Source of the DNA: a virus
Strand: one strand, 5' to 3'
DNA length: 29,416 bases
Virus record (IMG/VR): IMGVR_UViG_3300032241_003157
Coordinates: 1-29,416 of that record
The first letter of the stretch is position 1; every line of letters begins with the position of its first letter. Below, one piece after another: positions 9,698-25,825 of this stretch. Position numbers and translations under genes: made by a program. Below the pieces are notes generated by a model. That model made no database searches. It saw only the letters and a list, made by a program, of their open reading frames with translations, and had not been told where the DNA came from.

Positions 9698-10525
9698 ATG
9701 TCAGATTATTATCAAATTTTAGGTGTAGGTAAAACTGCATCGCAAGAAGAAATTAAAAAAGCTTATCGAAAATTAGCTGCACAGCATCATCCCGATAGAG
9801 GAGGAGATACGGCTAAATTCCAAGAAATTCAAGCAGCATATGATACATTAAGTGATCCTGAAAAAAGATCTCATTACGATAATCCTCAACCTCAAAATCC
9901 TTTTTTTCATGCCGGACATCCTGGGGCCGCAGGATTTCAAGATTTTTTTAATCAAGTATTCGGTCATGGATCTCCTTTTTCAAATTTTCATCAGCCTAGA
10001 CAACCAAAAAATCGTAACCTCAACATACAGACAACAATAAGTCTTGAAGATGCATATAATGGAAAACAATTATTTGCAAATATTGCGTTGCCTAGTGGTA
10101 AAGAACAATTATTAGAAATTAAAATTCCTCCGGGCATAAACGACGGGTCAATACTACGATTAGCAGGAATGGGTGATGATAGTGTTCCTAATCTTCCTAG
10201 GGGAGATATACATCTAACAGTTAATATAGCTCCGCATACACTTTTTAAAAGAGATGGCGATGATTTAATTACTGTTTATAAATTAAACTGTATACATGCA
10301 ATCATTGGAAAAAACATTCAAATAGATACCATAGATGGTAAAACTTTAGAGGTTGCAGTTAACCCCGGAACACAGCATGGACAAATATTAGCTGTACCTG
10401 GTTATGGTATGCCAAAAATGTCCGACAATAGATTCAAAGGTAGACTACTGATTGTGGTAGAAATTACAGTACCGAATTCTTTAACACAAGAACAATATAG
10501 AATTCTAAAAGAAACTTTTAATTAA
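9698..10525 (+). CDS. DnaJ/CbpA-like J-domain co-chaperone (275 aa)
   Basis: The J domain spans residues 1-62 (SDYYQILGV...) with the HPD triad at 31-33, the site that stimulates DnaK ATPase. A Gly/Phe-rich linker follows (about 63-100), then a DnaJ-type C-terminal substrate-binding region ([19 protein letters not shown] around 143-161). There is no CxxCxGxG zinc-finger region, so it is a class B (CbpA-like) Hsp40. It would act in the cytoplasm by directing host DnaK. It starts a block with peptide deformylase and a ClpA-like unfoldase, and has its own sigma70-like promoter. No Shine-Dalgarno precedes the ATG. Confidence 0.9.
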
Positions 10526-10533
10526 ATATTATT

Positions 10534-11028
10534 ATGTATAAAATTGTTAAATTTCCAAATGAAATACTTAGACAGAAAATAAAGTATTGGGATTTTAATA
10601 ATTGTCCAGAAGATCCTGTTCAATTAGAAAAAAATCTTATCGAAACTATGTTTGCAAATAATGGTATAGGATTATCTGCCAATCAAGTGGGATTACCATA
10701 CAGAGTATTTGTTATGGGTCATAAAGATATACCAGAGAATGCACAGGCGTTTTTTAACCCTATGGTTTTAAAAACTGTCGATGAGATCAAAGAATTAGAA
10801 GAGGGATGTTTGAGTTTTCCTGGTATTTTTGTTAAAATTAAAAGACCTACTAAAATTCTAGCTAGATGGCAAAATTCCCAGGGAGAATATCAAGAATCAG
10901 AATTTACAGGATATGATTGTAAATGTTTTTTACATGAATTGGATCATTTAGAAGGTATTGTATTTCAAGATAGAGCAAGTTCACTGAAATGGTCGATGGC
11001 AATTAAAAAGCTTAATAAGAGGAAATAA
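10534..11028 (+). CDS. def: Peptide deformylase
   Basis: A metalloenzyme that removes the N-terminal formyl group from nascent proteins. All three family motifs are visible: GIGLSANQ (44-51), EGCLS (90-94, metal-binding Cys 92) and HELDH (134-138, two metal-ligand His and the catalytic Glu 135). At 164 residues it is near the length of bacterial enzymes. Phage deformylases of this kind are known from marine myoviruses and may sustain processing of abundant phage or host proteins late in infection. It lies 8 nt after the DnaJ-like gene and 5 nt before the ClpA-like gene, so the three form one operon. No SD is seen at its start. Confidence 0.92.
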   Translation: MYKIVKFPNEILRQKIKYWDFNNCPEDPVQLEKNLIETMFANNGIGLSANQVGLPYRVFVMGHKDIPENAQAFFNPMVLKTVDEIKELEEGCLSFPGIFVKIKRPTKILARWQNSQGEYQESEFTGYDCKCFLHELDHLEGIVFQDRASSLKWSMAIKKLNKRK

Positions 11029-11033
11029 AATAA

Positions 11034-13301
11034 ATGTTAGAACCTAATAAAGATTTAGAAATTATTTTTGAAAATACTATTCAATTGGCAAGTACCAATA
11101 AACATGAATATATTACTTTAGAACATTTTTTATATAGCATGATTAACAATGAATCTTTTGCTAAGATTTTGACAGATTTCGGTGCAGATATCGACTCAAT
11201 GAAAACGGATCTTGAAAATTATATCAATCAAGATCTTCAAGAAATTGTAAAAGAAGGTGTAGATAAACCTAAAAAAACTATCACTGTAGATAGAATGTTG
11301 AATAGGGCATTTACACAGGTAATGTTTAGCGGTAGACAAATTATCGAACCGGTTGATTGTTTCATTAGCATGTTTTCCGAAAAGAAAAGTCATGCCAGTT
11401 ATTTCATTAATAAGGCCAAAATTGAAAAAGAAGCATTTTTAAATTTTATTAAGAGTGAATTTGTAAATGAAGAAAATATCGATGAAGCACAACCAAAATC
11501 ACAACTAGATAAATTCATTCTACAATTTTGTACAAATTTAACAGCACGAGCAAAAAATAAAAAAATTGATCCTGTAATTGGCCGAGAAAAAGAAATTGAA
11601 GAAATTCAACTTGTTTTAGCAAGAAGAGTTAAGGCCAATGCCATCTTGATTGGCGATCCTGGTGTAGGTAAAACCGCAATCGCTGAAGGATTGGCTCGAA
11701 AAATTGTTGAAGGTAAGGTCCCGACATTTATTCAGGATCATACTCTTTACAGTTTAGATATAAGTGCTATGCTAGCCGGTAGCAAATATAGAGGAGATTT
11801 CGAAGAAAGATTAAAAACTGTCATCGGAGGTTTAGAAAAAAAGGGTAAATGTATTCTATTCATCGACGAAGCACATATGATGAATGGTGCCGGTGCTTCT
11901 GGACAAAGTACCAATGATATGGCAAATATGCTAAAAAGTTCACTGGGAAAAGGAACTATCAAGGTAATCGCTTCAACAACTTGGGAAGAATATAGAAAAT
12001 ATTTTGAAAAAGATCGCGCCCTGATGCGTAGATTTCAACGAGTTACAGTCGATGAACCCGATGAAGATACCGCAATTAAAATCATTAAAGGTATTAAAAA
12101 ATATTATGAAAAACATCACGGTGTAAAAATTACTAATCAGGCTGTTATTGATAGTGTGAAATATTCTGTGAAATATATCAGTGATAAAAAATTACCAGAT
12201 AAAGCAATTGACCTCATTGATAGAGCCTGTGCTAGATTTAAAGTTAAAGACGAAACAACAGGAGTTGTGGATCACGAAGAAATTCTTTTTGAAATTAGTA
12301 AAATATCTGGTATTCCATTCGAACAGATTACCAATAAAGAAACAAATAATCTTTCAGAATTAGAAAATAATATGAAAGGAAAAGTATTTGGGCAAGATTT
12401 GGCTATTAATTCACTTCTTGACAAGGTGTTTATTGCACAATCTGGACTTAAATCACCTGACAAACCAATTGGTAACTTTTTGTTTGTTGGGCCTACTGGG
12501 GTAGGTAAAACTGAAGCTGCAAAACAATTAGCAGAAAATCTTGGTGTCAAATTAATTAGATTTGATATGAGTGAATATCAAGAACAACATAGTGTAGCAA
12601 AATTTATCGGAGCTCCTCCGGGATATGTAGGTTTTGAAGATAATGCAGGGCTACTAATAACCAAACTACAAGAAAATCCAAATTGTGTATTACTACTCGA
12701 CGAGGTGGAGAAAGCTCATCCTAGCGTTCTTACCGTATTGCTACAACTCATGGATAATGGGTTCGTAACAGGAAGTAACGGTAAAAAAGCAGATGCAAGA
12801 AACGCTATTCTAATCATGACCAGTAATCTCGGCGCAGTAGATGCTGAGAAAAATTCTGTAGGATTTGGATCTTTAGAAAGAGATGGAGATCCTAAGGACG
12901 CTGTGAATAGGTTTTTTGCTCCAGAATTTAGAAACAGGCTCGATGGTGTTATTAAATTTGGAAAGTTAGATAAAACAACAATGGTAAAAATTGTTGATAA
13001 ATTTATTAAAGATCTTAATGAGCTTGTAAAAGATAAAAATATTTTTATTAAACTATCACAATCTGCTATCGAATATCTTGTTGATAATGGGTTTAACAGT
13101 AAAATGGGTGCCCGACCTTTGCAAAGAACTATCGATAATTTAATTAAAAAACCACTTAGCAAAGAAATTTTATTTGGAAAATTAGTTAATGGTGGCGCTG
13201 TAGAAATTGATACAGAAAATGAAACCTTAAAATTAAATGTTATCGAATTGATGCCTGTTCCTACAGTTGAGGATCAAATTGAAGAAGCAGACAACATCTA
13301 A
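11034..13301 (+). CDS. clpA: ClpA-like AAA+ unfoldase
   Basis: A 755-residue Hsp100 protein. An N domain (about 1-140) is followed by two AAA+ modules: Walker A GDPGVGKT (207-214) with Walker B ILFIDEAH (274-281), then GPTGVGKT (486-493) with VLLLDEVE (552-559). A pore-loop region GAPPGYVG (526-533) and the [10 protein letters not shown] end are also present. There is no long M-domain between the modules, which excludes ClpB and fits ClpA/ClpC. A VGFG tetrapeptide (609-612) sits where ClpA carries its IGL/IGF ClpP-docking loop, so it probably docks on host ClpP; no clpP is in the window. The RBS is AGAGGAAA. The gene could be used to redirect host proteolysis. Confidence 0.92.
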
Positions 13302-14407: not shown

Positions 14408-14415
14408 TATAAATA
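14408..14415 (+). promoter_or_regulatory. T4-type late promoter motif TATAAATA
   Basis: An exact TATAAATA lies in the 50-nt gap before the gene at 14437, 21 nt before its ATG. It is placed to drive the series of genes from 14437 onward (small basic protein, EF-motif protein, 1126-residue fusion) as late genes. Confidence 0.6.
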
Positions 14416-14436: not shown

Positions 14437-14853
14437 ATGCGTATTTCTGACATTTTAAATTTTCAAAATGATCATATTCAAGAGGGAGATAGTTTTTCAA
14501 TTGAATTAGATGATATTATTTTAGAAAGTTATGTTGTAGGATTTACCGATGATGGTATTATTATTGAAAGCGACGAGTTTATGCTAGGGTATTTGACTAC
14601 AGATGATTTAACAGAGGCCAAATATCATGGAAAAACAGTACCATTAGGTAAGCCCATGGCGGGAGATGTTAAAAAATCTAAAGTTTATGTGAAAAAACCA
14701 AATGGTAATGTTGTTAAAGTAAACTTTGGCGATAAAAATATGCGTATTAAAAAGTCTAATCCTAAACGCCGTAAAAGTTTTAGAGCAAGACATCATTGCG
14801 AAAATCCAGGTCCGAGGTGGAAAGCAAGATACTGGTCATGCAGAAAGTGGTGA
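14437..14853 (+). CDS. Small protein with conserved basic Cys/His C-terminal domain (138 aa)
   Basis: The N-terminal half is acidic and beta-rich (DSFSIELDDIILESYVVGF). The C-terminal half is a compact, strongly basic module: LGKPMAGDVKKSKVYVKKP, NVVKVNFGDKNMRIKK, then KRRKSFRARHHCENPGP and ending WKARYWSCRKW. This C-terminal module recurs in many T4-like phages in head-associated contexts, but its function is not known to me. The RARHHC...WSC arrangement could bind metal or nucleic acid. The start MRISDIL fits the short N-terminal motif of the neighbours, and HIQE-G near residue 14-18 resembles a prohead protease site. It is expressed from a late promoter motif; the RBS is GGAG. Confidence 0.7.
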   Translation: MRISDILNFQNDHIQEGDSFSIELDDIILESYVVGFTDDGIIIESDEFMLGYLTTDDLTEAKYHGKTVPLGKPMAGDVKKSKVYVKKPNGNVVKVNFGDKNMRIKKSNPKRRKSFRARHHCENPGPRWKARYWSCRKW

Positions 14854-14857
14854 TAAT

Positions 14858-15232
14858 ATGTTATTAAAAGAATTTTTCGGAAAAGGTATAGATCCTATTA
14901 AAATGTCCCATAAAGATGGGCATGGAGATAGAATTAATGACGAACTATTTTGGTTTATAATTGACCACGACAAGCTTCATAAAGATTATTTTCATCCATT
15001 AGCCGTGAAAATTAAAAAATCATTTGAAAGTAACAAAAACGATAAAGAAAAATTTGTTAAAGAATTTATGCCTATGGTCAAAAAAGGATGTAAAGAATTT
15101 TATATACATAAAAAAATGAAAGGAAGTTTAGGACATGCCTTTCCTGAGGAACTAAGAAAAGATATGTGCGAAAGACTTTTCGACCACTACCGCGAAGATA
15201 TTATCAAAGAAAAATATAAAGTAGGTGCGTAA
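14858..15232 (+). CDS. EF-motif N-terminus protein, unknown function (124 aa)
   Basis: ATG 14858 is chosen because it starts the MLLKEFF motif shared with the next gene (MILREFF) and avoids a 128-nt overlap with the upstream gene that the longer frame would need. The protein is highly charged (Lys/Asp/Glu) and helical, with HKDGHGDRINDELFWFIIDHD and YIHKKMKGSLGHAFPEEL; His-rich segments are notable. No family is recognised. It ends 1 nt before the start of the 1126-residue fusion, indicating tight coupling with it. Confidence 0.65.
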   Translation: MLLKEFFGKGIDPIKMSHKDGHGDRINDELFWFIIDHDKLHKDYFHPLAVKIKKSFESNKNDKEKFVKEFMPMVKKGCKEFYIHKKMKGSLGHAFPEELRKDMCERLFDHYREDIIKEKYKVGA

Positions 15233-15233
15233 C

Positions 15234-18200
15234 ATGATACTGAGAGAATTTTTCAAACATTCTAAACTCTTTGAAGGTGGAAATTTAGAAATCGATGGTG
15301 CACAAGCACAGCAAATCGATCTCAAAGTACATAACAGAGCCTACATTATCCCTATTCTAAATACTTTACTCAATTCTATTAATTCAGAATTTCAACAGAG
15401 TACAGGCGGGCCGTTATGGAATCCCAAGGTTCTTAAAAGTCGCAAATATCTAAGTGGATCTAGTCCACATTTTTTTAATACAGATATATCAGATGATGAA
15501 TTTGAACGGATTAAACCTAAAGTAGGAGATATCGATACACAAGTTAACAAAGAAACAGAACCACAATTATCTCAGTGGCTCGAAAGTGTAAAGGGGCAGG
15601 TTGTCGGTAATGCTAAGTTTTTAGGATATAGTAGAGGTAATGAACAGTACAGTAGTTTATGGGAATTAACCGATCCTCCTATAAAAGTTCAGATCGACTT
15701 TGAATTTGTTGAATACAGTGAAAAAGATGAACCAACTGATTGGGCAGGATTTAGTCATAGTAGTAGCTGGGATGATCTAAATCAAGGTATTAAAGGCGTA
15801 TTTCACAAATTCTTAATACAATCTCTATCAAAAATGTCTTCAAAAGATTTTATATTTAGAAAAACCCATACAAGAACAGGAAAAGTTACAGATAAGGTCG
15901 AAAACGATAGCATGATTACCTTTGCCGTAAGTAGCAAAGAGGGCGGAGGACTTAGACTAAAGTACAAACCGGTACTAGACAACAATGGTAAACCTTTAGA
16001 AATAGATGGATTACCTGTACTAAAAGAATTACCAACAATTGGTTACGAAAGAGATATCAGCAAAATTTTTCAAACAATATTCGACAAAAGAATTGATAGA
16101 GCAGAATTAGCCAAAGTTTTACCAAACACATGGAGTTTTACCGGTCTATTAGATATTATGAATGTGATTCTTACTACTGAAGAAAAAGAACAGGTATTAG
16201 ATTCATTTGTTGATAAGTTATTTGCTCCTGGTGCACAAGGTCTATATAAAGGAGATCCTGAACGAGATCTTAAAGAAAAAAATACTGCTCTTAACTATGC
16301 ATTAAAAGTACTTGATATAGCACCTCCTAAAAACTTAGAGCAAATGCGTCAAGATTATGTCAAGAACTATAAGGTAACTACAGAAGGACCGGTTGGTTTA
16401 GATAGTCCTATTGAAGAAGCAGATGAGCAGCAACCAGTTGTCAAAGCACAATTGCGTAAAGGTATGCCACATCTGCGTGATTTAAAACCTGCAGACTTTT
16501 TAGATTTAGTAGATGAACTACACAGTGAGGGAGGTCGTTTCAAATTAGAAAACATTCCTCTTAATGTCAAGATAGACGGTTTCGGAGGTCGGTTCGGTAA
16601 GAATGCATCCGGTGCTCCGTTTATGGGTACCAGCAGAACCGAACCTCGTTATAAGGCAGGTTTCTTAAAATATCGTCAAGAAAAAGGAACAACAGATCCA
16701 GAAGTACTAAACAGAGCTAAATTGTTCGATGATCTGTTCGATGAAATGATGACTGCAATTAAAGCAGTGGATTCTAAATTAGGATCTGACTTTTTAGTAG
16801 ATAAACAGGTCACTTGCGAGGTATTATTTTTACCATTTGCCACACAAACAGAGGAAGGTAAACTAAAATTTGTCGGTATTGAATATGATCAACTACCAAA
16901 AGGTGTTAATCTTGTACTTGTTCCATTCCGTGTTGTAAAAGCCAGTACAGGTGAAGATGTCCCCGACAATGACGAAATAATTAAATCCTTAACCGATGTT
17001 GGTCAAAGCGGTAGTGTAATGTTTATCAGTAACCGATTGAAACAAAAACAAGGGTTAGATGTTACTGAGATTATCGACCCTTTAGACAATATTGAAGAAT
17101 TAAAAAATATTGTAGCAGGTACATCTGGTAAAAGAGATAGAGCAAGCATACAATTAAGAAAAGAAATTGAAGAGAAACTCAAACCGGTACAGATAGCCTT
17201 AGAAAAAGCTATAGATGAAGATCCAAACATTATTGGTAAAGATTTGTTGGGTAAAAATTATGAAGGTATTGTTATCAACAGTCGTTTAGGTCCAATTAAA
17301 GTAACTAGTCAACAACAAAAAGATATTATTGCTAAGAAAAATGCAACCAGGGCTGCAACTCACATTGAACAACCTAGACAAAATATTAGAAAAACTGCGG
17401 TAGTTGCTATAGGTAGTTTTATTGGACATAAAGGTCACGAAGAATTATTCAATTACACAATTAATAAAGCCGAAGAACTAGGTGGAGATCCTTATCTGTT
17501 TATAGGAAATGCAGAAGGAAAGGATGATCCTATTCCTACATCTGTTAAAGTGGAAACATGGCACAAACTATATCCCGAATATGCACAAAATATCAGTGCA
17601 GTTATGCAAGGCGGTTCCTTGATACAAAAGATCAAGCACGAATTAATTAATCCTCTTCCTGGAAAACCTCCTCGGTATGATAATATTATTATCATGGTAG
17701 GTGAGGATCGTGCAGGATTAACCATGCCTGCTGCGCTGATGAAATCTGTAAATAAATTCCCCGGATACGAACATGTTAAAGTAAGTTTAGATGTTACACC
17801 TCGTGGTACTGGTATCAGTGGAACTATGCTGAGAAATAGTCTAAAAAACGAAAGTCCAGAAAAGGCATTAGAAACTTGGTCAAATGCTTTTGATGTTAAG
17901 AAATTAGGTATTAGCTGGATTAAACATTTAATGGATGTTACGAGAAAAGGAATGGGCATTATCAAACCTGAACAAAAACAACAATCAGTATCTGAAACTC
18001 GATTATTCAATGCATTGATTAGAAATAACTCTAAGGTCAATGAAGAATTGGAATATTCCAAAAGAAATAAACTTATCAGTTTAATTCATAAAATTAAGGG
18101 TTGGGGTACTGCTGAACTTTCCTTGTTAAGTGATGAAGAACTATTAGATATAGTAAAGGGAATCAAAGCTGAAAGAAGTAAAGATCTGGATGAAAAAATG

Positions 18201-18614
18201 ATGGATCCTCATATATTTGCAGGATATGCTAGAGGGCAAAAACCTGGAGATATGTGGCGTGGTACAGACAAAGGACCCCCGGGAAATAAAGCATTTGGTG
18301 AATCTACCAAAAAAGGTGTGGCGGAAGTTTCTAAAACTAAAAAAAATCACAATGAATTTGAAGATCACAGTACCATGAGTAGGGCGGGTACAGGTCTGCC
18401 TGGGAACAAACCCGGAACCATAGGACCGAGTAACTACACTGATCAATCTAATTTCCGTGATCCACAAGGAATTTATGAAATAAAAAATCAAATAAAACAA
18501 TCGTATAAAGAAAAATCATCGGCCTTGATTCCTGTCAGTGAGGATATACAGAAGATATTTGATACATTAATTAATAAAATTATTATAAATGAAGCAATAC
18601 AAGATAACAAGTGA
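15234..18614 (+). CDS. Multidomain nucleotidyltransferase fusion (NTase + ligase-like + HxGH cytidylyltransferase-like)
   Basis: I use ATG 15234 (MILREFF, the motif shared with neighbours); a GTG at 15225 would add only three residues. Three modules are visible in 1126 residues. (1) About 70-160: GSS (75-77), GDIDTQV with Asp 99 and 101, and VQIDFEF with Asp 155, the pattern of polymerase-beta-type nucleotidyltransferases. (2) About 440-700: VKIDGFGGRF with candidate nucleotidyl-Lys 446, CEVLFLP (528-534), EGIVI (677-681) and IKVTS (688-692), matching motifs I, III, IV and V of ATP-dependent polynucleotide ligases. (3) About 720-890: GSFIGHKGHE (HxGH at 732-735) and GISGTMLR (860-867), the HIGH and ISSTxxR motifs of the nucleotidylyltransferase superfamily. 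Glu-Ala/Glu-Gly sites lie in the linkers, and the C-terminus has GVAEV and EDHSTM. Module assignments are by motif only; the substrate is unknown. Confidence 0.75.
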   Translation: MILREFFKHSKLFEGGNLEIDGAQAQQIDLKVHNRAYIIPILNTLLNSINSEFQQSTGGPLWNPKVLKSRKYLSGSSPHFFNTDISDDEFERIKPKVGDIDTQVNKETEPQLSQWLESVKGQVVGNAKFLGYSRGNEQYSSLWELTDPPIKVQIDFEFVEYSEKDEPTDWAGFSHSSSWDDLNQGIKGVFHKFLIQSLSKMSSKDFIFRKTHTRTGKVTDKVENDSMITFAVSSKEGGGLRLKYKPVLDNNGKPLEIDGLPVLKELPTIGYERDISKIFQTIFDKRIDRAELAKVLPNTWSFTGLLDIMNVILTTEEKEQVLDSFVDKLFAPGAQGLYKGDPERDLKEKNTALNYALKVLDIAPPKNLEQMRQDYVKNYKVTTEGPVGLDSPIEEADEQQPVVKAQLRKGMPHLRDLKPADFLDLVDELHSEGGRFKLENIPLNVKIDGFGGRFGKNASGAPFMGTSRTEPRYKAGFLKYRQEKGTTDPEVLNRAKLFDDLFDEMMTAIKAVDSKLGSDFLVDKQVTCEVLFLPFATQTEEGKLKFVGIEYDQLPKGVNLVLVPFRVVKASTGEDVPDNDEIIKSLTDVGQSGSVMFISNRLKQKQGLDVTEIIDPLDNIEELKNIVAGTSGKRDRASIQLRKEIEEKLKPVQIALEKAIDEDPNIIGKDLLGKNYEGIVINSRLGPIKVTSQQQKDIIAKKNATRAATHIEQPRQNIRKTAVVAIGSFIGHKGHEELFNYTINKAEELGGDPYLFIGNAEGKDDPIPTSVKVETWHKLYPEYAQNISAVMQGGSLIQKIKHELINPLPGKPPRYDNIIIMVGEDRAGLTMPAALMKSVNKFPGYEHVKVSLDVTPRGTGISGTMLRNSLKNESPEKALETWSNAFDVKKLGISWIKHLMDVTRKGMGIIKPEQKQQSVSETRLFNALIRNNSKVNEELEYSKRNKLISLIHKIKGWGTAELSLLSDEELLDIVKGIKAERSKDLDEKMMDPHIFAGYARGQKPGDMWRGTDKGPPGNKAFGESTKKGVAEVSKTKKNHNEFEDHSTMSRAGTGLPGNKPGTIGPSNYTDQSNFRDPQGIYEIKNQIKQSYKEKSSALIPVSEDIQKIFDTLINKIIINEAIQDNK

Positions 18615-18894
18615 AAATATACCTAAGGATACTTCAGACGATTGCTATATCGACCCTGCAGATCCTGTAAATGAATTAAAGATAGTACAATATCTTGCAG
18701 GGTTAGGCTCGGCAGCTAGACTACAAGAATACAGGGCAAAAACAACCCAAGATATTAGTGATAGCAATATAACAAAAACTGCTAGCGAAAATGCTCGCAT
18801 TATGCGAGAACAAAACATTAAACCGGGTACTCCCGAATGGTTCAAACTTTGGTTTTCAAAACAATTCATGACCGGAGAGAAGCCTATTAATTAA
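18589..18894 (+). CDS. Conserved small T4-like phage protein (101 aa)
   Basis: It overlaps the large fusion gene by 26 nt. It opens MKQYKITSENIPKDTSDDCY, continues DPADPVNELKIVQYLAGLG, and ends with PGTPEWFKLWFSKQFMTGEK. The terminal PGTxEWFKLWF...TGEKP signature is conserved among marine T4-like phages next to GVAEG-bearing proteins; I know no function for it. No membrane segment is present. Its stop is immediately followed, in convergent orientation, by the end of the minus-strand homing-type gene. Confidence 0.7.
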   Translation: MKQYKITSENIPKDTSDDCYIDPADPVNELKIVQYLAGLGSAARLQEYRAKTTQDISDSNITKTASENARIMREQNIKPGTPEWFKLWFSKQFMTGEKPIN

Positions 18895-19283
18895 GACTTG
18901 GTTACTTTATTTTTGCACTTTTCCCTGTGTTTGCTACCTGTTCCGTTATACCATCCATCCGGACATTCTAAACTTTTTACAGTATCAATTCCATTAGTCC
19001 ACCATCTTTTTCCGTAACTAGGATTGTTTTTTCCTAAATGATGTTCGTTTTTACGATTTGTCTCAAATAGGCGTTCTTTAATATATGGAGCCCTACCTCT
19101 TTTCCATCCTTTAGGACATTCTATGCTTTTTATTTCCGAAGAGCCGTCGGTCCACCAATACTTTCCAGATCCTAAATATTTGTTAGGATCGAACTTTGCA
19201 GTTTTACAAAAGTATAAAAGTCCTGTTATTTTATGACGTTTAATCATTAGCCAAGTAGGCTTAAATTTATTATAAATAAACAT
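18891..19283 (-). CDS. Homing-endonuclease-like protein, shortened (130 aa)
   Basis: ATG 19283 is preferred over 19328, since the family-like part starts at FKPTWLMIKRHKITGLLYFC. This resembles the opening of T4-like homing endonucleases (KPTYL.IK.H..TGL.YFGKT, then DPNKYLGSGKYW). In place of the catalytic core, the protein passes straight into two similar C-terminal units, KYWWTDGSSEIKSIECPKGW and RWWTNGIDTVKSLECPDGW, that look like DNA-binding repeats. The Gly of the YFGKT-type motif is Cys. It is therefore probably an internally deleted, cleavage-defective element. It is inserted on the opposite strand between two rightward genes, 4 nt overlapping the end of the left one. Confidence 0.65.
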   Translation of the reverse strand: MFIYNKFKPTWLMIKRHKITGLLYFCKTAKFDPNKYLGSGKYWWTDGSSEIKSIECPKGWKRGRAPYIKERLFETNRKNEHHLGKNNPSYGKRWWTNGIDTVKSLECPDGWYNGTGSKHREKCKNKVTKS

Positions 19284-19343
19284 GCTGATTGCTCCTAGTA
19301 GCATTAGAGTAGTTGGGGTTTCTGACACCCGCGAACTACGCTT

Positions 19344-19363
19344 TTATTTATTTGAATAAATAA
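19344..19363. repeat. 9-bp palindrome upstream of the Dps gene
   Basis: TTATTTATT (19344-19352) and AATAAATAA (19355-19363) form a perfect inverted repeat with a 2-nt centre, ending 4 nt before the dps ATG. It contains AATAAATA on both strands, one base from the late promoter consensus, and replaces any Shine-Dalgarno. It may be an operator or simply A/T-rich spacer. Confidence 0.4.
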
Positions 19364-19367
19364 CAAT

Positions 19368-19823
19368 ATGAACGATTTATCACAATTACAACAATTTGCA
19401 AAAATATCTTTTGCCAGTACATATAGTTTTGCTATTAAAAGTCAAAACTTTCATTGGAACGTAATTGGTTCGGATTTCTTTGAATATCATTCTTTATTTG
19501 AAAAAATATATCAAGAAGTTTATGAATCTATTGACAATTTTGCCGAAAATATTCGCAAATTAAAGGCGTATACTCCGGCTAGTCTTAGCCGTTTTAGTAT
19601 GCTAACTAAAATCGAAGACGAAACCGAAATTTTACCAGTTGAAGCGATGGTTAAAGAATTACTAGACGACAATGACCGTATGTTGGTTATTTTGAAGAAA
19701 ACTTATGATGCAGCCGAAGCAGCAGGTAAACACGGTTTCAGTAATTTTTTAGCCGAAAGAATGGATGCTCATGAAAAACATGGTTGGATGCTTAGAGCCA
19801 GCAGCAAAGGACAGCAGTTATGA
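19368..19823 (+). CDS. dps: Dps-like ferritin (DNA-binding, iron-oxidising)
   Basis: A 151-residue Dps-family four-helix protein. The ferroxidase ligands are all present with E. coli spacing: His 29 (FHW), His 41 (EYH, +12), acidic residue 45 (Glu, +4), Asp 56 (SID, +15) and Glu 60 (AEN, +19). Residues SQNFHWNVIGSDFFEYHSLF give the family signature. Dps 12-mers oxidise and store iron, detoxify peroxide and coat DNA. The N-terminus is short, without the Lys-rich DNA-binding tail of E. coli Dps. It has no SD. The next gene starts in an ATGA overlap, so it belongs to the operon of modular capsid-type proteins. Confidence 0.88.
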   Translation: MNDLSQLQQFAKISFASTYSFAIKSQNFHWNVIGSDFFEYHSLFEKIYQEVYESIDNFAENIRKLKAYTPASLSRFSMLTKIEDETEILPVEAMVKELLDDNDRMLVILKKTYDAAEAAGKHGFSNFLAERMDAHEKHGWMLRASSKGQQL

Positions 19824-20191
19824 GAGCACGAGAATTCATCGACGAGGCTAAAGATTATTCTGGGCAGCAAGGTATGCACAAAGATTGGTCCAGTGTTATT
19901 CCCAATGGTCACATTTATCCAGAATTGGATAATAGTTCCGGGTATCTTGCATACAGATTCGGTGTTGCGGTTGCAGGGATGCCCAACCAAAAAATGGATG
20001 TCGCAGGTCCCACAGGATTGAAAATGGTAACTATAGGTTATACCCCAGCCGATGAAGAAATACTCAATGCTGCATCAAAGTTAGTAGGAACACCCAAAGT
20101 TAAATTAACTTCAGATCGCAGCACAGAACCTCAAGGGACTTACACCAGAAGTCCTGTATCAAATTGGAATCCAAGGAATAATAAGAAATGA
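19820..20191 (+). CDS. Small protein with capsid-targeting-like N-terminus (123 aa)
   Basis: It starts MRAREFIDEAKDYSG, very like the start of T4 internal protein IPIII (MKTYQEFIAEA), where the prohead protease cuts after the Glu. IDE-A fits the (I/L)-x-E-(A/G) rule. The rest contains SSGYLAYRFGVAVAGMP, GPTGLKMVTIGYTPADEE and a basic C-terminus; this is a type seen in marine T4-like phages without known function. Both ends have ATGA overlaps (with dps upstream and the 855-residue gene downstream), so translation is coupled. An internal head protein is my inference. Confidence 0.7.
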   Translation: MRAREFIDEAKDYSGQQGMHKDWSSVIPNGHIYPELDNSSGYLAYRFGVAVAGMPNQKMDVAGPTGLKMVTIGYTPADEEILNAASKLVGTPKVKLTSDRSTEPQGTYTRSPVSNWNPRNNKK

Positions 20192-22755
20192 AAAATCACG
20201 AATTTAAAATTAAAAAATTCAAAGACTCCACAGTTTATACATTAGAAAGTGCAAGTAGCGGTGGTACCAGTGCAGGCAGTATTTCTTCTACAAATTCACC
20301 TGTTGGAAAATTACAGAGGCGGAACAGCATTATTGTTCAAGATGGGCAAGAACTAGACGAATTGAAAAGACCCAGCGGTTCTATGTTTCTTAAGTTTAGA
20401 GTTAAAACACTACCTGATGATGAAAAGACCATAATCGCCTATGGTGGATTTGGAACAACTCCTGCAGATGTTACCGTAAAAACTGCTAAAATTAAACCAT
20501 TCGATGCTAATGATACAGGGGAAGTTATAGTTAGAATAAAAAAATTATTAGCAGATAGAGATTTTATCGGTGTACAAAAAATTTATTTAGATATTCCCAA
20601 TGGTTTAAAACCTCGTCTAGAAGATTTAATTGATTATACCGAAAATGATGAAAGATTAGAATTATATAGTGCAGAAGATCATGACACCGATGATGAAACT
20701 GGAGGTGGTCAAACAGCTTATTATGTCAATGGCAAAAGAGTCAGTATACCGGGAAAACCACAAGCCCAGGTAGCGGGTTCAAGCCGTGGTGTTGCATCTA
20801 CAGGTATGGTGTCAATTAATGCAACCGATGATGGACAAAGATTAATCAAAGCATTAATATCTCAAAATAAATTAAGCAGAGATACTAAATTAGTTGGAAA
20901 TAAAATCACACTTAGAAAAGATGACTACAAAAAAATATTGAATACATTAGGCAATGATCGATTCCAACAGTATTTTACAAAAAAATCTGAAATCAGCGAA
21001 AAAGGTGTAGGAGAGGATCATAGTACAATGACGCAAGGTTATGGTCGGGAATCGGCCAGTACAGGAATGGCGTTTTCAAATCGTGCTAAAGGTGCTATCC
21101 CTGAAGAAAAAACTAGATTAGACCCATCATGCTGGTCTGGTAAAAAGATTGGAAATCCTGAAACTAAAGTAAAAGGTGGTGTTAGAGTTAATAATTGTGT
21201 TCCTAAAGAATCATATCAACTGGATGAATATGAAACCCATACCTTTACAGACCGAGAAGGAAATGTTTGGCGAGTAGATGATGAAGGGAATCGAGAATTG
21301 GTTAAGGGTGTCGGAGGTTCAGGAACCAGAACAGGCGGTAGCAGAGCCGGTCGTTCTGATGATTCTCCTTACAATCTGAAAAATAAAACCACTGGAAAAT
21401 TGCTCTTACAAAAAGGCACACAATCTCCCGCAGTGTTTAATGGTCTTCAACATGCACTGAATGTGGCTGCAAAATTACAATTTGGCAGTTGGGAACCGGT
21501 TCGTGCAACCATGGAGGAAGGTGTAGCGGAAGGCTCCAATAATGGTGGAACTCCATTTAATCAGGAGACTAATTTAAGATCTAAAACACCAAAACAATTA
21601 GCAGCATTGCTTGAATATTGGAAGAAAATATTAAAAACAGCTAACGATCGGGAAGATTGGAGGACAGCCGAGAGAGCCGATGAGCAAATACAATTAATTA
21701 AAAAGATCTTGGCCGGAAGAATTGGCAAAAAAGATATGGGAAAAGACTCAGGTGCCTTTATTAATGAATTTGCCCCCGATGATAACGATAGAGACGGTGG
21801 CGGTGAACGATTTTCATTCCAAGAAGACATTGATAGTAATGATGAAAAATATCTAATAGAAATTTATTATGAGGAAGATAGCGGTTCATATGCCGTTGCA
21901 TTTCATGAAAAACGAGGCAATCGACAGTATGTTATGTATCCCGTTGACAATGTCGATCCTGACGATTTAGCAGATGGTGCAACCGAGTATGTTCAAGATA
22001 TTATTACAAATGTAAAACGAGGTAGTACCGAAGATTTTGTAGCACCAAAAAATATGGAACTTGAGGAATTTATTCCGCCCCAGCAAGGTGTGGCGGAAGG
22101 CTCAGAAGACTCACTTCCTGCCGGATACGGAGATTATTCTAACGGTGCAACTAATCCAGATAGAACTGCATCGGCACAGAGACAAGCAGATAGGGAATTT
22201 GATCGAAGAGAACACGAACGCAAAGAAAAAGAGCGTAAAAATAAAGGTGTAAAAGGCCCAGATGATCTTGAGACCCATCAAAATCCAGATCCTAACGAAT
22301 ATGATATGGAGGGGGATTTTGTAAAAAATCAAATACATACCATTGTTCGTGCAGCTACTGAGTTGGCCGACGAAATCAATGACGATGATAACTTGCCAGA
22401 ATGGGTTGAAGAAAAAATAAGTCAAGCAAAAGGTATGTTGGTTAGCGTTATGAACTACATGATGAGCGAAAAAGAAAAACAAGATGATTTATCTCAATCA
22501 AATTTTGATGAGAATGATCAGTATTTCGAAACCCTTGATCAAAAGTTAAATAACTTGATTTCAGAAAAAGCATTAAGTAAAAGTATGCAAAGATTTATGG
22601 GTATGGTACATGCAGTTCAAAAAGGAGATATGACTGCACCAAGCCCGGCTGTGGCAAAAGCAGCTAAGGGAATGAGCATGAAGGCGGCACACGATTATGC
22701 TGCCACAACACATGCAGGTTTACCAGAAAAGAAACGAGCATCAAAAAAAAAGTAA
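20188..22755 (+). CDS. Large modular protein with GVAEG repeats (855 aa, in-frame part)
   Basis: This is a mosaic of short modules rather than one fold. An N-terminal alpha/beta part (about 60-265) is followed by GVGEDHSTM (273-281) and DPSCWSGKKIG...KGGVRVNNCVPKE (312-341). EEGVAEGS (443-450), a helical unit (467-510), an acidic unit and QQGVAEGS (632-639) come next. The C-terminal part has EYDMEGDFVKNQIHTIVRA...NLPEWVEEKI (704-744) and LSKSMQRFMGMVHAVQKGDM...GLPEKK (796-849). These last modules recur in unrelated marine phage proteins. The GVAEG units look like prohead protease sites. The frame ends in AAAAAAAAAGTAA; a further 61 residues continue in the -1 frame. It is coupled by ATGA to the preceding gene. 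The role is unknown; internal head protein is likely. Confidence 0.7.
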   Translation: MKNHEFKIKKFKDSTVYTLESASSGGTSAGSISSTNSPVGKLQRRNSIIVQDGQELDELKRPSGSMFLKFRVKTLPDDEKTIIAYGGFGTTPADVTVKTAKIKPFDANDTGEVIVRIKKLLADRDFIGVQKIYLDIPNGLKPRLEDLIDYTENDERLELYSAEDHDTDDETGGGQTAYYVNGKRVSIPGKPQAQVAGSSRGVASTGMVSINATDDGQRLIKALISQNKLSRDTKLVGNKITLRKDDYKKILNTLGNDRFQQYFTKKSEISEKGVGEDHSTMTQGYGRESASTGMAFSNRAKGAIPEEKTRLDPSCWSGKKIGNPETKVKGGVRVNNCVPKESYQLDEYETHTFTDREGNVWRVDDEGNRELVKGVGGSGTRTGGSRAGRSDDSPYNLKNKTTGKLLLQKGTQSPAVFNGLQHALNVAAKLQFGSWEPVRATMEEGVAEGSNNGGTPFNQETNLRSKTPKQLAALLEYWKKILKTANDREDWRTAERADEQIQLIKKILAGRIGKKDMGKDSGAFINEFAPDDNDRDGGGERFSFQEDIDSNDEKYLIEIYYEEDSGSYAVAFHEKRGNRQYVMYPVDNVDPDDLADGATEYVQDIITNVKRGSTEDFVAPKNMELEEFIPPQQGVAEGSEDSLPAGYGDYSNGATNPDRTASAQRQADREFDRREHERKEKERKNKGVKGPDDLETHQNPDPNEYDMEGDFVKNQIHTIVRAATELADEINDDDNLPEWVEEKISQAKGMLVSVMNYMMSEKEKQDDLSQSNFDENDQYFETLDQKLNNLISEKALSKSMQRFMGMVHAVQKGDMTAPSPAVAKAAKGMSMKAAHDYAATTHAGLPEKKRASKKK

Positions 22756-22937
22756 GTGAAACTGGTGCAGAGCAATTAGATGAAAAAATTCCTGCAAATG
22801 CACCAGTTGATGTTTGGATCAAGGATTTTCAACAATCAAACGCTAAACAATTTAGAGGTAAAAATCTAAGAAAAAGAGAACAAATGGCAAGAGCAGCTAG
22901 CTATGCGGCTAAAAATCCAGATAAAAAGAAAAGATAA
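22743..22937 (+). other. Out-of-frame C-terminal extension (61 codons) behind an A9 slippery run
   Basis: After A9 (22743-22751) the -1 frame stays open from 22752 to TAA 22935-22937. It encodes VSETGAEQLDEKIP, then PVDVWIKDFQQSNAKQFRGK and a basic end PDKKKR. This P...W..DF..S....F.GK module is one often seen at ends of phage structural proteins. The frame has no ATG, GTG or TTG start between its upstream stop (22665) and an internal ATG only 17 codons from the end, so it must be reached from the upstream frame. Its stop overlaps the deaminase start as TAATG, as expected if ribosomes really arrive in this frame. A -1 programmed frameshift or slippage, or a one-base homopolymer error, would explain it. 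Confidence 0.7.
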
Positions 22938-23443
22938 TGAGATTGAACGAATTTGATCAAGATGATTATATAATTAAAAATAGAATTAAACTTGATCGAA
23001 TTCTAGTGGAACTTTGTCACCATATTATCAAAGGACAAAAACAGGATCCTAAAAAATATGGAATAGTAGCTGCTGCTGTAATAGATCCTGATGATAAAAA
23101 AGTTTATGGTGTAAATGAGTTATCAGAAGATGATAAAAGAAAACATGCCGAACGAGTTGCCATAGATAGATATAAAAAACACTATGGAGAAATTCCTCCG
23201 GGTAGCATTATAGTAACAACATTGAGTCCATGCAATGAATATGGTAGCGAAATGGCCGGCCAAAGATACGGCGAAAGTTGCACAGATTTAATCAACGAAA
23301 GTCAATGTAGAAAGGTCTATTGCGGTTATATAGATCCAAGTCAACATAATGATCATCAAGAATATACATTGGAAGAAACTACCAATGAACATATTAAAGG
23401 TCTTTGTAAAAAATTTGCCGATACTTTTTTGAAAGAAAAATAA
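22937..23443 (+). CDS. Zinc-dependent deaminase-like protein (168 aa)
   Basis: A cytidine/deoxycytidylate-type deaminase fold: KYGIVAAAVIDPDDKKVYG (40-58), HAE at 70-72 (zinc His and catalytic Glu), and LSPCN with Cys 99 plus Cys 115 as remaining zinc ligands, then KVYCGYIDPSQ. The Pro-Cys to Cys spacing is 15 residues, whereas PCxxC is standard. RYGESCTDLI is a family-like segment of marine phage homologues. The substrate could be a free (deoxy)cytidylate, a pterin/riboflavin-type intermediate or a base in nucleic acid. It starts MRLNEF, like its neighbours, in a TAATG junction with the preceding frame. Confidence 0.75.
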   Translation: MRLNEFDQDDYIIKNRIKLDRILVELCHHIIKGQKQDPKKYGIVAAAVIDPDDKKVYGVNELSEDDKRKHAERVAIDRYKKHYGEIPPGSIIVTTLSPCNEYGSEMAGQRYGESCTDLINESQCRKVYCGYIDPSQHNDHQEYTLEETTNEHIKGLCKKFADTFLKEK

Positions 23444-23472
23444 TTGACTATTCTCCGCTGTTTATATACAAT
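23444..23472 (+). promoter_or_regulatory. Sigma70-like promoter (TTGACT-17-TACAAT)
   Basis: TTGACT at 23444-23449 and TACAAT at 23467-23472 with the ideal 17-nt spacer, 20 nt before the ATG at 23493. It is one of the best promoter matches in the window and suggests strong early or middle expression of the DsbA-like gene. Confidence 0.65.
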
Positions 23473-23492
23473 TTAGACTAAGGAGAAAAATC

Positions 23493-23765
23493 ATGAGTAA
23501 AGTGTTTGGTGATCCTGAAAAATCCAAAATCAAACAAATCGTGGCCGAAGGGGTAACCGTTTTACAAGAGATTCAAGATCTTACCGACGGACTAAATGAC
23601 ACCATTAAAGCAGTAGCCGAAGAACTAGAAGTTAAACCCAGTATTATTAAACGGGCAATTCGTATTGCCATGAAAGATCAATGGGATCAAGTCTATCGAG
23701 AGTTTGATGATCTCGAAAGTATTGTTGATATCAGTGGGCATGCTAATCGTAGAGATGATGATTGA
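23493..23765 (+). CDS. dsbA: DsbA-like double-stranded DNA-binding protein (90 aa)
   Basis: The core VAEGVTVLQEIQDLTDGLND, then KAVAEELEVKPSIIKRAIRIA, resembles the T4 DsbA (dsDNA-binding) family: a helical dimerisation part followed by a helix-turn-helix-like unit. T4 DsbA is 89 residues and binds near late promoters, stimulating late transcription. An acidic end (ESIVDISGHANRRDDD) follows. Its own strong promoter and AAGGAG RBS indicate high expression. It is unrelated to the disulfide oxidoreductase of the same name. Confidence 0.65.
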   Translation: MSKVFGDPEKSKIKQIVAEGVTVLQEIQDLTDGLNDTIKAVAEELEVKPSIIKRAIRIAMKDQWDQVYREFDDLESIVDISGHANRRDDD

Positions 23766-24557: not shown

Positions 24558-24950
24558 ATGAGTTATGTTGATGCCATCTGGTCTAAAGATGAAGACTCCA
24601 TTAGAGTAGTGGAACGAGATCCTAAAAAAGGAAGAGTTTATCAAGATTTTCCAGCTCGATATGTATTTTATTACCCTGATTCTAAAGGAAAATATCGATC
24701 CATCTATGGCGATAGTCTCTCTAGAGTAACTGCTAAAAGTTTTAAAGAATTTTCTAAAGAACAAAGAATTCACAGCGGACACAGACTGTTTGAAAGTGAT
24801 ATTAATCCTGTGTTTAGATGTCTAGAAGAAAACTACTTAGGCAAAGAACCACCTAAATTGAATGTGGCATTCTTTGATATCGAAACTGATATGCAACCTT
24901 TTGCAGTATCATCTCAGTATATGGTCCGTATTCGAAAAAAGAAAAAATAG
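24558..24950 (+). CDS. 43: DNA polymerase gp43, N-terminal part (gene split)
   Basis: The N-terminal 115 residues match a T4-like family B polymerase: VDAIWSKDEDSIRVVERD, YYPDSKGKYRSIYGDSL, and the exonuclease I motif NVAFFDIETD (about 102-111), which carries the catalytic Asp and Glu of proofreading. After MQPF the frame leaves the polymerase, reads AVSSQYMVRIRKKKK and stops. The rest of gp43 resumes 0.9 kb downstream, so the gene is interrupted inside the exonuclease domain. RBS AGGAG. Either it is spliced with the downstream part, or a 130-residue peptide must assemble with it. Confidence 0.88.
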   Translation: MSYVDAIWSKDEDSIRVVERDPKKGRVYQDFPARYVFYYPDSKGKYRSIYGDSLSRVTAKSFKEFSKEQRIHSGHRLFESDINPVFRCLEENYLGKEPPKLNVAFFDIETDMQPFAVSSQYMVRIRKKKK

Positions 24951-25825
24951 TTTTTGATATTGAAGTAGATAGACTAAATAATTTATAATAGGAACAATTA
25001 TGAATTACGAAAAAATCTACCATAACATTATTAATAATGCTAGCACAAGAAAAAAAGGGCCAGGGATTGAAAAACATCATATCGTGCCTAGAAGTTGTGG
25101 AGGGTCAGATGATAAATCTAATCTTGTTTATCTAACTACAAGAGAACATTTAATTTGTCATTTACTATTAGTTAAAATATATAAAAATAATTCGGTGTTT
25201 CGAAAGAAGATGATATATGCTCTATGGTGGATGGCAAAGACAAGAAACTGTGTTAATAATTGCCGAATAACAAGTCGGACCTATGCACTAGCAAGAGAAG
25301 AATTTATTAGAAATAACCCAAATAATTGTGAAGAAAGAAAAAAAAGATTCACAGAAAACCATAAAGCAGGAAAATACAAATATAATTATAAAAAAGTAGG
25401 ACAAACTTTAAAAGAAACATTGCAGAAGTTAAGCAAAGAAGAAATGATTGAAAGGATGAGATCATCAGCATTATCTTGCGATCATAAAAAAAGAAGAGAT
25501 TCTATTAGAAAGGGAAAAGCATCTCATTTCTGCTTAACTAATATTGATAATACCAATGTAGAATTTTGGTCGTACGATGATGTAAAAACAATAACAGGGT
25601 ATGATTATGGTCAGATACTATATAGGATAAAAAAATACAACGGCAAGATGCCAAACGGGTCTACCATAAAATACATATCAAAATATAGAGGAAATGATGG
25701 AAACATTGGAAGAAAAAGAAATAACAGTATTCGAGTTAAATCAATTACAAAATCGAGATGACTACGAAGTATGGGATGATATTAAGAAACAATGGGTTAA
25801 TATACACAGTTGTAGATACCTAGAG
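24903..25825 (+). mobile_element. Homing element interrupting gp43 (group I intron or freestanding insertion)
   Basis: The limits are inferred by joining the two polymerase halves. Cutting after TTT 24900-24902 and resuming at CCG 25826 gives a continuous MQPF-PGPGYASPEDAF in frame, 891 residues in total (T4 gp43 has 898). These limits have the U-before and G-before-exon bases that group I introns use. The element holds one HNH endonuclease gene. I could not find convincing P/Q/R/S core sequences; only AGACTAAAT at 24971-24979 recalls an R-type element. A freestanding insertion with two separate polymerase ORFs is the alternative. Confidence 0.6.
25000..25761 (+). CDS. HNH homing endonuclease inside gp43
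   Basis: 253 residues with an HNH nuclease centre at the N-terminus: IEKHHIVPRSCGGSDD (His 26-27), N41 in KSNLVYLTT, and His 50 in REHLICH. A basic, helical middle (RKKRFTENHKAG, NYKKVGQTLK) and a C-terminal FCLTNIDNTNVEFWSYDDVK unit of the DNA-binding repeat type follow. It should cut gp43 alleles lacking the element and spread it by repair. A TAGGA RBS precedes the ATG, and CTAAATAA (24974-24981), close to the late promoter motif, lies 18 nt before the start. The 3' end overlaps the second polymerase frame by 68 nt. Confidence 0.85.
   Translation: MNYEKIYHNIINNASTRKKGPGIEKHHIVPRSCGGSDDKSNLVYLTTREHLICHLLLVKIYKNNSVFRKKMIYALWWMAKTRNCVNNCRITSRTYALAREEFIRNNPNNCEERKKRFTENHKAGKYKYNYKKVGQTLKETLQKLSKEEMIERMRSSALSCDHKKRRDSIRKGKASHFCLTNIDNTNVEFWSYDDVKTITGYDYGQILYRIKKYNGKMPNGSTIKYISKYRGNDGNIGRKRNNSIRVKSITKSR

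Follow-up and report, generated by a model that had tools for sequence, protein, structure and literature searches.

A viral sequence of 29,416 nucleotides (IMG/VR record IMGVR_UViG_3300032241_003157, a 29-kb fragment, here called the window) encodes an 1126-residue polyprotein in which a DNA polymerase beta (Pol-beta)-type nucleotidyltransferase (D1), a ligase-type enzyme (D2), and a domain assigned to the HIGH superfamily of nucleotidylyltransferases (D3) follow one another in a single open reading frame (ORF). The polyprotein is real, well conserved, and unusual, and it presents known parts in a new combination. As for its role, the evidence leaves us evenly balanced on the proposal that it belongs to the polyvalent class and, delivered from the head after processing by a prohead protease, serves in nucleic-acid repair, acting, as a best guess, on RNA and on tRNA in particular.

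Nucleotidyl-transfer domains of the polyprotein

The frame (Table 1) contains no internal stop codon, and its translation holds three sets of motifs: GSS (residues 75-77), GDID (98-101), and VQIDF (152-156) in D1; KIDG (446-449), E529, EGIVI (677-681), and IKVTS (688-692) in D2; and GHKGH (731-735) and ISGTMLR (861-867) in D3. Among 70-73 distinct homologues, a set that includes alignable distant stand-alone genes, not one substitution was found at S76, D99, D101, D155, K446, D448, R453, E529, E677, or K689, and H732 and H735 of D3 are likewise retained. As the catalytic residues are almost invariant over this set, the three motif sets are not a product of chance. The same D1-D2-D3 order is found in a single ORF in 33 close relatives in IMG/VR and in 78 of the 80 loci retrieved with a D2 profile, two overlapping samples, and the fusion therefore cannot be put down to faulty assembly or to an isolated case. 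Whole-protein scans against Pfam, NCBIfam, and PADLOC gave nothing above cut-off (for Pfam, nothing at E<=10, the RNA_ligase family PF09414 included), and a D2-D3 profile found no relatives in 84,980 bacterial and archaeal genomes.

AlphaFold models were built from a 19-sequence alignment for D1 (residues 1-394) and D2 (396-712). The D1 model (predicted local distance difference test score, pLDDT, 89.8; predicted template modeling score, pTM, 0.85) combines a Pol-beta-type fold with the GS, DxD, and third Asp motifs of that superfamily. Its top structural matches are family X polymerases (Pol mu, Z 8.3) and the terminal nucleotidyltransferases TUT7 and GLD-2 (Z 7.2-7.8), and against family X DNA polymerases the values, which are modest, run from Z 7 to 8.3 across 165-200 residues. 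The RlaP family model PF10127 does not match D1, which would thus be RlaP-like in function at most. Neither D1 nor D2 found a convincing partner when solved structures were searched by sequence profile.

The D2 model (pLDDT 89.4, pTM 0.82) has a ligase fold in which motifs I (KxDG), III, IV, and V occur in order, as expected of a polynucleotide ligase. When compared by Z-scored alignment and Foldseek, it ranks Naegleria Rnl5 first (Z 10.6, ~190 residues), followed by TbREL1 (9.6) and T4 Rnl2 (9.4), with the Clostridium thermocellum Pnkp ligase (9.2) and the best DNA ligase (9.1) lower. Among viral models, proteins annotated as RNA ligase from phages and giant viruses match at 3.5e-6 and 1.9e-5, and proteins annotated as "cytidyltransferase-like domain-containing" also match, among them a Synechococcus phage S-PM2 protein (1.6e-6). 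In these model comparisons, RNA ligases are the closest matches of D2. Ordinary RlaP or RNA_ligase hits were found in none of 12 relatives' contigs, which are partly incomplete, and this is compatible with the polyprotein taking that role. Capping enzymes rank low in the viral structure list for D2, and nothing else points to mRNA capping.

D3 belongs to the HIGH superfamily by its HxGH and S-x-T-x-x-R motifs and its profile matches, with phrog_3041 cytidyltransferase at 1.2e-11, RibF at 6e-4, and cyanophage and CBB proteins at 97.8% by HHalign. We regard the folds of the polyprotein as almost certainly those assigned here. An earlier note on this DNA had read three nucleotidyl-transfer folds in the one protein, and the ORF, the motifs, the confident D1 and D2 models with their matches to Pol-beta-type transferases and RNA/DNA ligases, and the phrog_3041 match of D3 bear it out; the catalytic Asp, Lys, and His residues, the loss of which would have spoken otherwise, are nearly all invariant in ~70 distinct homologues.

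Head-targeting-like tag and cleavage-type sites

In T4, the prohead protease gp21 cleaves after L/I-X-E, and capsid-targeting propeptides are 10-19 amino acids long (PMC9026906). The first 14 residues of the polyprotein, MILREFFKHSKLFE, fall within that range and end in L/I-X-E, and the family retains the N-terminal pattern M-x-L-x-E-[LF]-F...L-x-E/GGN (slashes mark predicted cuts). When sites are scored as [LIVAMF]xE[AGSN], they are found at the N-terminus of 17/17 homologues (and, as L-x-E/GGN, in 68 of 78 further ones) and in the D1-D2 linker of 18 of 19, even though these linkers vary in length and sequence, but in the D2-D3 linker of none of the 19. Site density per 100 amino acids is 5.5 at the N-terminus and 2.7 in the D1-D2 linker versus 0.05-0.22 in the folded domain cores (Fisher test, 1e-31, a figure that is merely illustrative, as the sequences are related). 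The window protein alone shows no excess of LxE sites (3 versus 4.5 in shuffles), so that only position across homologues is informative. In this respect, the M-GGN start of stand-alone D1 homologues in Vibrio, Xanthomonas, and Stenotrophomonas phages falls exactly on the predicted mature end, and the Campylobacter CP220 D1 homologue begins MKLSELMFILE/GGN; Campylobacter phage IBB_35 also encodes a D1 homologue (AEF56792). Both the prohead protease gp21 (PF03420) and gp23 (PF07068) occur in 5 of the 12 relatives' contigs, where gp23 carries KYLAE/SATAG or a near variant close to its N-terminus.

On these sequence signs, packaging and processing are quite likely, with a propeptide, D1 (15-395), and D2-D3 plus tail as the predicted products. 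Packaging, raised as a possibility in the earlier note, thus gains support from the propeptide-like N-terminus and the conserved cleavage-type sites, and the N-terminus that it called capsid-like is better termed capsid-targeting-like. Its suggestion of proteolytic release holds as far as the sites support cutting; the predicted cut, however, would free D1 from a still-joined D2-D3 and not three separate enzymes. The late promoter that it proposed fares similarly, as the octamer TATAAATA does lie 21 bases upstream of the presumed operon but is not enriched in the window (3 copies versus 5.4 expected), its position alone being suggestive.

The modules joined at such sites are shuffled among relatives. 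In two loci (L148 and L150), a homologue of the gene immediately upstream (14858-15232) is joined to D1 through a ..MEGGN junction, and in three others (L189, L190, and L208), an HExxH (metallopeptidase) module is joined through ISE or IME ahead of GGN. The C-terminal tails of relatives reach ~935 amino acids, some holding a phage lysozyme with LysM and others an HD_4 domain, and this C-terminal cargo is frequently joined by QGVAEG, a hexamer class with 72 occurrences in the loci versus 5 and 0 for two permuted controls.

Proposed role and rival explanations

A head-import tag together with protease cutting sites makes it probable that a ready-made nucleic-acid repair kit is packaged in the phage head and delivered along with the DNA. 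The polyprotein would be produced late and would enter the prohead core by means of its first 14 residues, in the manner of T4 capsid-targeting sequences. A T4-gp21-type prohead protease would cleave behind E14 and E395, with further cuts likely within the tail, and inside the capsid D1 would be freed while D2-D3 would remain joined, both reaching the host together with the phage DNA. Broken nucleic acid would most likely be repaired there, the best guess being RNA or tRNA cleaved by a host defense: D1 would restore lost nucleotides, D2 would self-adenylylate on K446 and seal the ends, and D3 would perform an accompanying adenylyl or nucleotidyl transfer. Packaging, cleavage, delivery, and substrate are all inferred in this scheme. 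That nucleic-acid ends are the substrate seems reasonably probable, and if they are, the balance tips slightly toward RNA over DNA. Of the end repair or capping suggested in the earlier note, repair is favored and capping is not indicated. It could be speculated further that the HIGH domain adds or removes adenylyl groups at polynucleotide 5'-phosphate ends, by the bond chemistry that joins nicotinamide mononucleotide (NMN) and ATP to NAD+, and is coupled to the fused ligase, the head-delivered kit mending tRNA or mRNA after its cleavage by abortive-infection nucleases and before any phage gene expression; we consider this specific version improbable.

Several known systems resemble parts of this scheme. 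Polyvalent proteins (Iyer et al. 2017, PMC5512222) are large and multidomain, combine disparate enzymes in variable architectures, sometimes with metallopeptidase modules, and are inferred to be co-injected with DNA. The window protein is like them in holding several unrelated enzymes in one polypeptide (D1, D2, and D3, with lysozyme/LysM, HD_4, or HExxH in relatives) and in the shuffling of its N- and C-terminal cargo. It differs in that its sites fit a prohead protease, whereas release of polyvalent proteins is credited to embedded peptidases; in the passages of that paper retrieved by a term search, moreover, ATP-grasp ligases are named solely as separate phage RNA-repair enzymes and not as polyvalent modules. 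A short N-terminal propeptide ending L/I-X-E, a late, T4-type setting, and a gp21-like protease in relatives recall the T4 internal head proteins and Alt (PMC9026906), which are, however, not multi-enzyme polyproteins with sites between enzymes. In a known phage theme, the Pol-beta nucleotidyltransferase RlaP restores nucleotides and an ATP-dependent RNA ligase then seals the RNA (PMC7824862). The same two kinds of enzyme stand together here, but D1 is unmatched by the RlaP model and the partners are fused, head-tagged, and joined by a HIGH enzyme. With polyvalent proteins (PMC5512222), gp21 processing (PMC9026906), and RlaP pairs (PMC7824862) each known, the "undescribed system" of the earlier note was too strong a term; the components are each known, and it is their combination with a HIGH enzyme that we did not find described.

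A number of observations weigh against the proposal of a head-delivered RNA repair kit. D2 scores only modestly higher with RNA ligases than with DNA ligases, the RlaP family model misses D1, which DNA polymerases X resemble at least equally, and related cyanophage modules sit among DNA replication genes. No kinase or phosphatase module is fused, the scheme gives D3 no definite part, and the contigs of the 12 relatives are not all complete. The strongest rival is head-delivered DNA gap or nick repair, in which D1, a family-X-like polymerase, would fill gaps and D2 would seal DNA nicks, either in the genome as it arrives or in phage DNA that has been cut. Such a role would agree with the best D1 matches over ~290 residues (Pol mu, beta, lambda, and TdT), with DNA ligase matches to D2 that reach Z 9.1, and with the helicase, primase, and UvsX-type genes that adjoin related modules, as well as the clamp loader and DNA polymerase genes near the polyprotein in the window. 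As RNA ligases nevertheless rank top for D2, the model of which has no OB or DNA-binding domain, and as a Z of 7-8 for D1 is close to the level reachable by unrelated folds, we take DNA repair to be unlikely, if still worth serious consideration.

The packaging signs are sequence-level only, and stand-alone homologues of Menderavirus, X1, and Vibrio phages have no tag, both of which would suit an unpackaged late cytoplasmic enzyme with coincidental LxE sites. This is doubtful when the sites are conserved solely at the N-terminus and D1-D2 linker, one coincides exactly with the stand-alone D1 start, and cargo is shuffled at them. It is similarly hard to favor a D3 that replenishes NAD+ in the face of NAD-depleting defenses by acting as an NMN adenylyltransferase, with D1 and D2 secondary, and the NAD-type cofactor synthesis of the earlier note retains the status of a rival only. 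A Menderavirus neighbor gene is annotated as nicotinamide-nucleotide adenylyltransferase, a cyanophage relative matches the NMNAT PHROG weakly (0.008), and NadV is present in 3 of the 12 relatives; it was, however, not found in the partial contigs of the other nine, two of the three carriers have a separate ~340-amino-acid HIGH gene ~3 kb away, almost all homologues have D3 joined to the ligase, and D3 carries a DDPIP segment unlike the NPF in the Menderavirus protein. The enzymes might also modify host proteins or small signals as AMPylation-type effectors, as proposed for polyvalent Pol-beta nucleotidyltransferases; polyvalent proteins consist of host-directed effectors, and their Pol-beta nucleotidyltransferases are grouped with protein-modifying domains (PMC5512222). 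The constant pairing of the Pol-beta nucleotidyltransferase with a motif-complete ligase indicates nucleic acid ends instead, and we give this explanation only a slim chance.

Related modules and genomic surroundings

Outside the family, Menderavirus and Xanthomonas X1 phages hold adjoining genes in the order D1, unknown (phrog_12709 N-half), ligase, and HIGH. The likeness lies in gene neighborhood and order; the parts are four genes, without propeptide and with one additional gene of unknown function, which lies between D1 and the ligase (L036, 6749-7693; L035, 7008-8012) and by sequence hints at a PD-(D/E)xK nuclease-like core. In marine cyanophages and relatives, DUF6267, a KxDG protein, is followed by a HIGH cytidyltransferase, and phrog_455 covers both. 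This cyanophage/pelagiphage pairing of DUF6267 (phrog_455) and cytidyltransferase (phrog_3041) thus resembles D2-D3 in a KxDG protein adjoining or fused to a HIGH transferase but shows neither D1 nor a head tag. DUF6267 of Prochlorococcus phage P-HM2 (PF19782; L040, 4736-5953) has an invariant KWDG motif. HHalign of D2 against DUF6267 was not significant, leaving no sequence-profile link, and the connection consists of a structure match and the KxDG motif: because of KWDG and the match of the S-PM2 protein, probably DUF6267 fused to HIGH, to the D2 model, DUF6267 is probably an unrecognized ligase-fold family. As ligase and HIGH enzymes are paired outside the family, their association is wide and probably old, with D1 and the head tag gained or lost.

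Table 1. Features of the window in and around the polyprotein gene.
Feature	Position	Strand	Details
TATAAATA, T4-late-promoter-like	14408..14415	+	21 bases upstream of first gene of presumed operon 14437-18614
First gene of presumed operon, phrog_7595 (unknown function)	14437..14853	+	Propeptide-like N-terminus MRISDILNFQNDHIQE/GD
Upstream gene with matching N-terminal tag	14858..15232	+	MLLKEFFGKG...; fused in frame to D1 in L148, L150
D1-D2-D3-tail polyprotein gene	15234..18614	+	1126 amino acids; ATG 15234, stop 18612-18614
Propeptide-like residues 1-14, MILREFFKHSKLFE	15234..15275	+	Capsid-targeting-like; predicted cut after E14 (L-x-E/GGN)
D1, Pol-beta-type nucleotidyltransferase, residues 15-378	15276..16367	+	G75-S76, D99, D101, D155; model; phrog_19290
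Variable D1-D2 linker ending PIEE/AD	16368..16418	+	Predicted cut after E395; site in 18/19 homologues
D2, ATP-dependent RNA-ligase-like covalent nucleotidyltransferase, residues 396-712	16419..17369	+	K446 (motif I), E529 (III), E677 (IV), K689 (V); model
D3, HIGH-superfamily nucleotidylyltransferase, residues 713-912	17370..17969	+	H732-x-G-H735 (in 731-735), S862-x-T-x-x-R867; phrog_3041
C-terminal tail, residues 913-1126	17970..18611	+	Poorly conserved; KKGVAE/VS (E1031), INE/AI (E1120)
Companion 855-residue polyprotein	20188..22755	+	N-terminus ..YTLE/SASSGGTSAG; two GVAE/GS sites; phrog_30268-type C-terminus

Further propeptide-like starts are seen in the small genes at 19820-20191 (MRAREFIDE/A) and 23493-23765 (..KQIVAE/G), so that head cargo may be encoded as a block from 14437 to 23765. 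The N-terminus of the companion polyprotein is akin to the gp23 propeptide end of relatives, KYLAE/SATAGATSAGN. A ferritin-like/Dps-type protein (19368-19823; PF00210, 3.6e-18) is encoded between the two polyprotein genes, and a cytidine/deoxycytidylate deaminase domain (3.4e-11) at 22937-23443 starts MRLNEF, to which the start of a 524-residue ORF with a QGVAEG-type junction in a relative (L143), MRLLEFSDSDYEIHNRTKLDQ, is akin. A B-family DNA polymerase (24558-28156) is seemingly split around an HNH endonuclease ORF (25000-25761), probably an intron or intervening homing element. GroES-like (1897-2235) and ClpB/ClpA-like ATPase (11034-13301) genes, both from Pfam, and DnaJ-like (9698-10525) and peptide deformylase (10534-11028) genes, both read from sequence, form an unusual phage proteostasis set.

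If the proposed role is correct, T4-type phages of a common environmental group would bring finished repair enzymes into the host, derived from a polyprotein matured by proteolysis, and nuclease-based host defenses would be pre-empted ahead of phage transcription. It would also provide a testable function for a ligase-HIGH pair that recurs as "unknown function" in marine and freshwater T4-type phages, DUF6267 included, and the L/I-x-E and QGVAEG junctions could serve as a code for spotting other head-packaged cargo in metagenomes.

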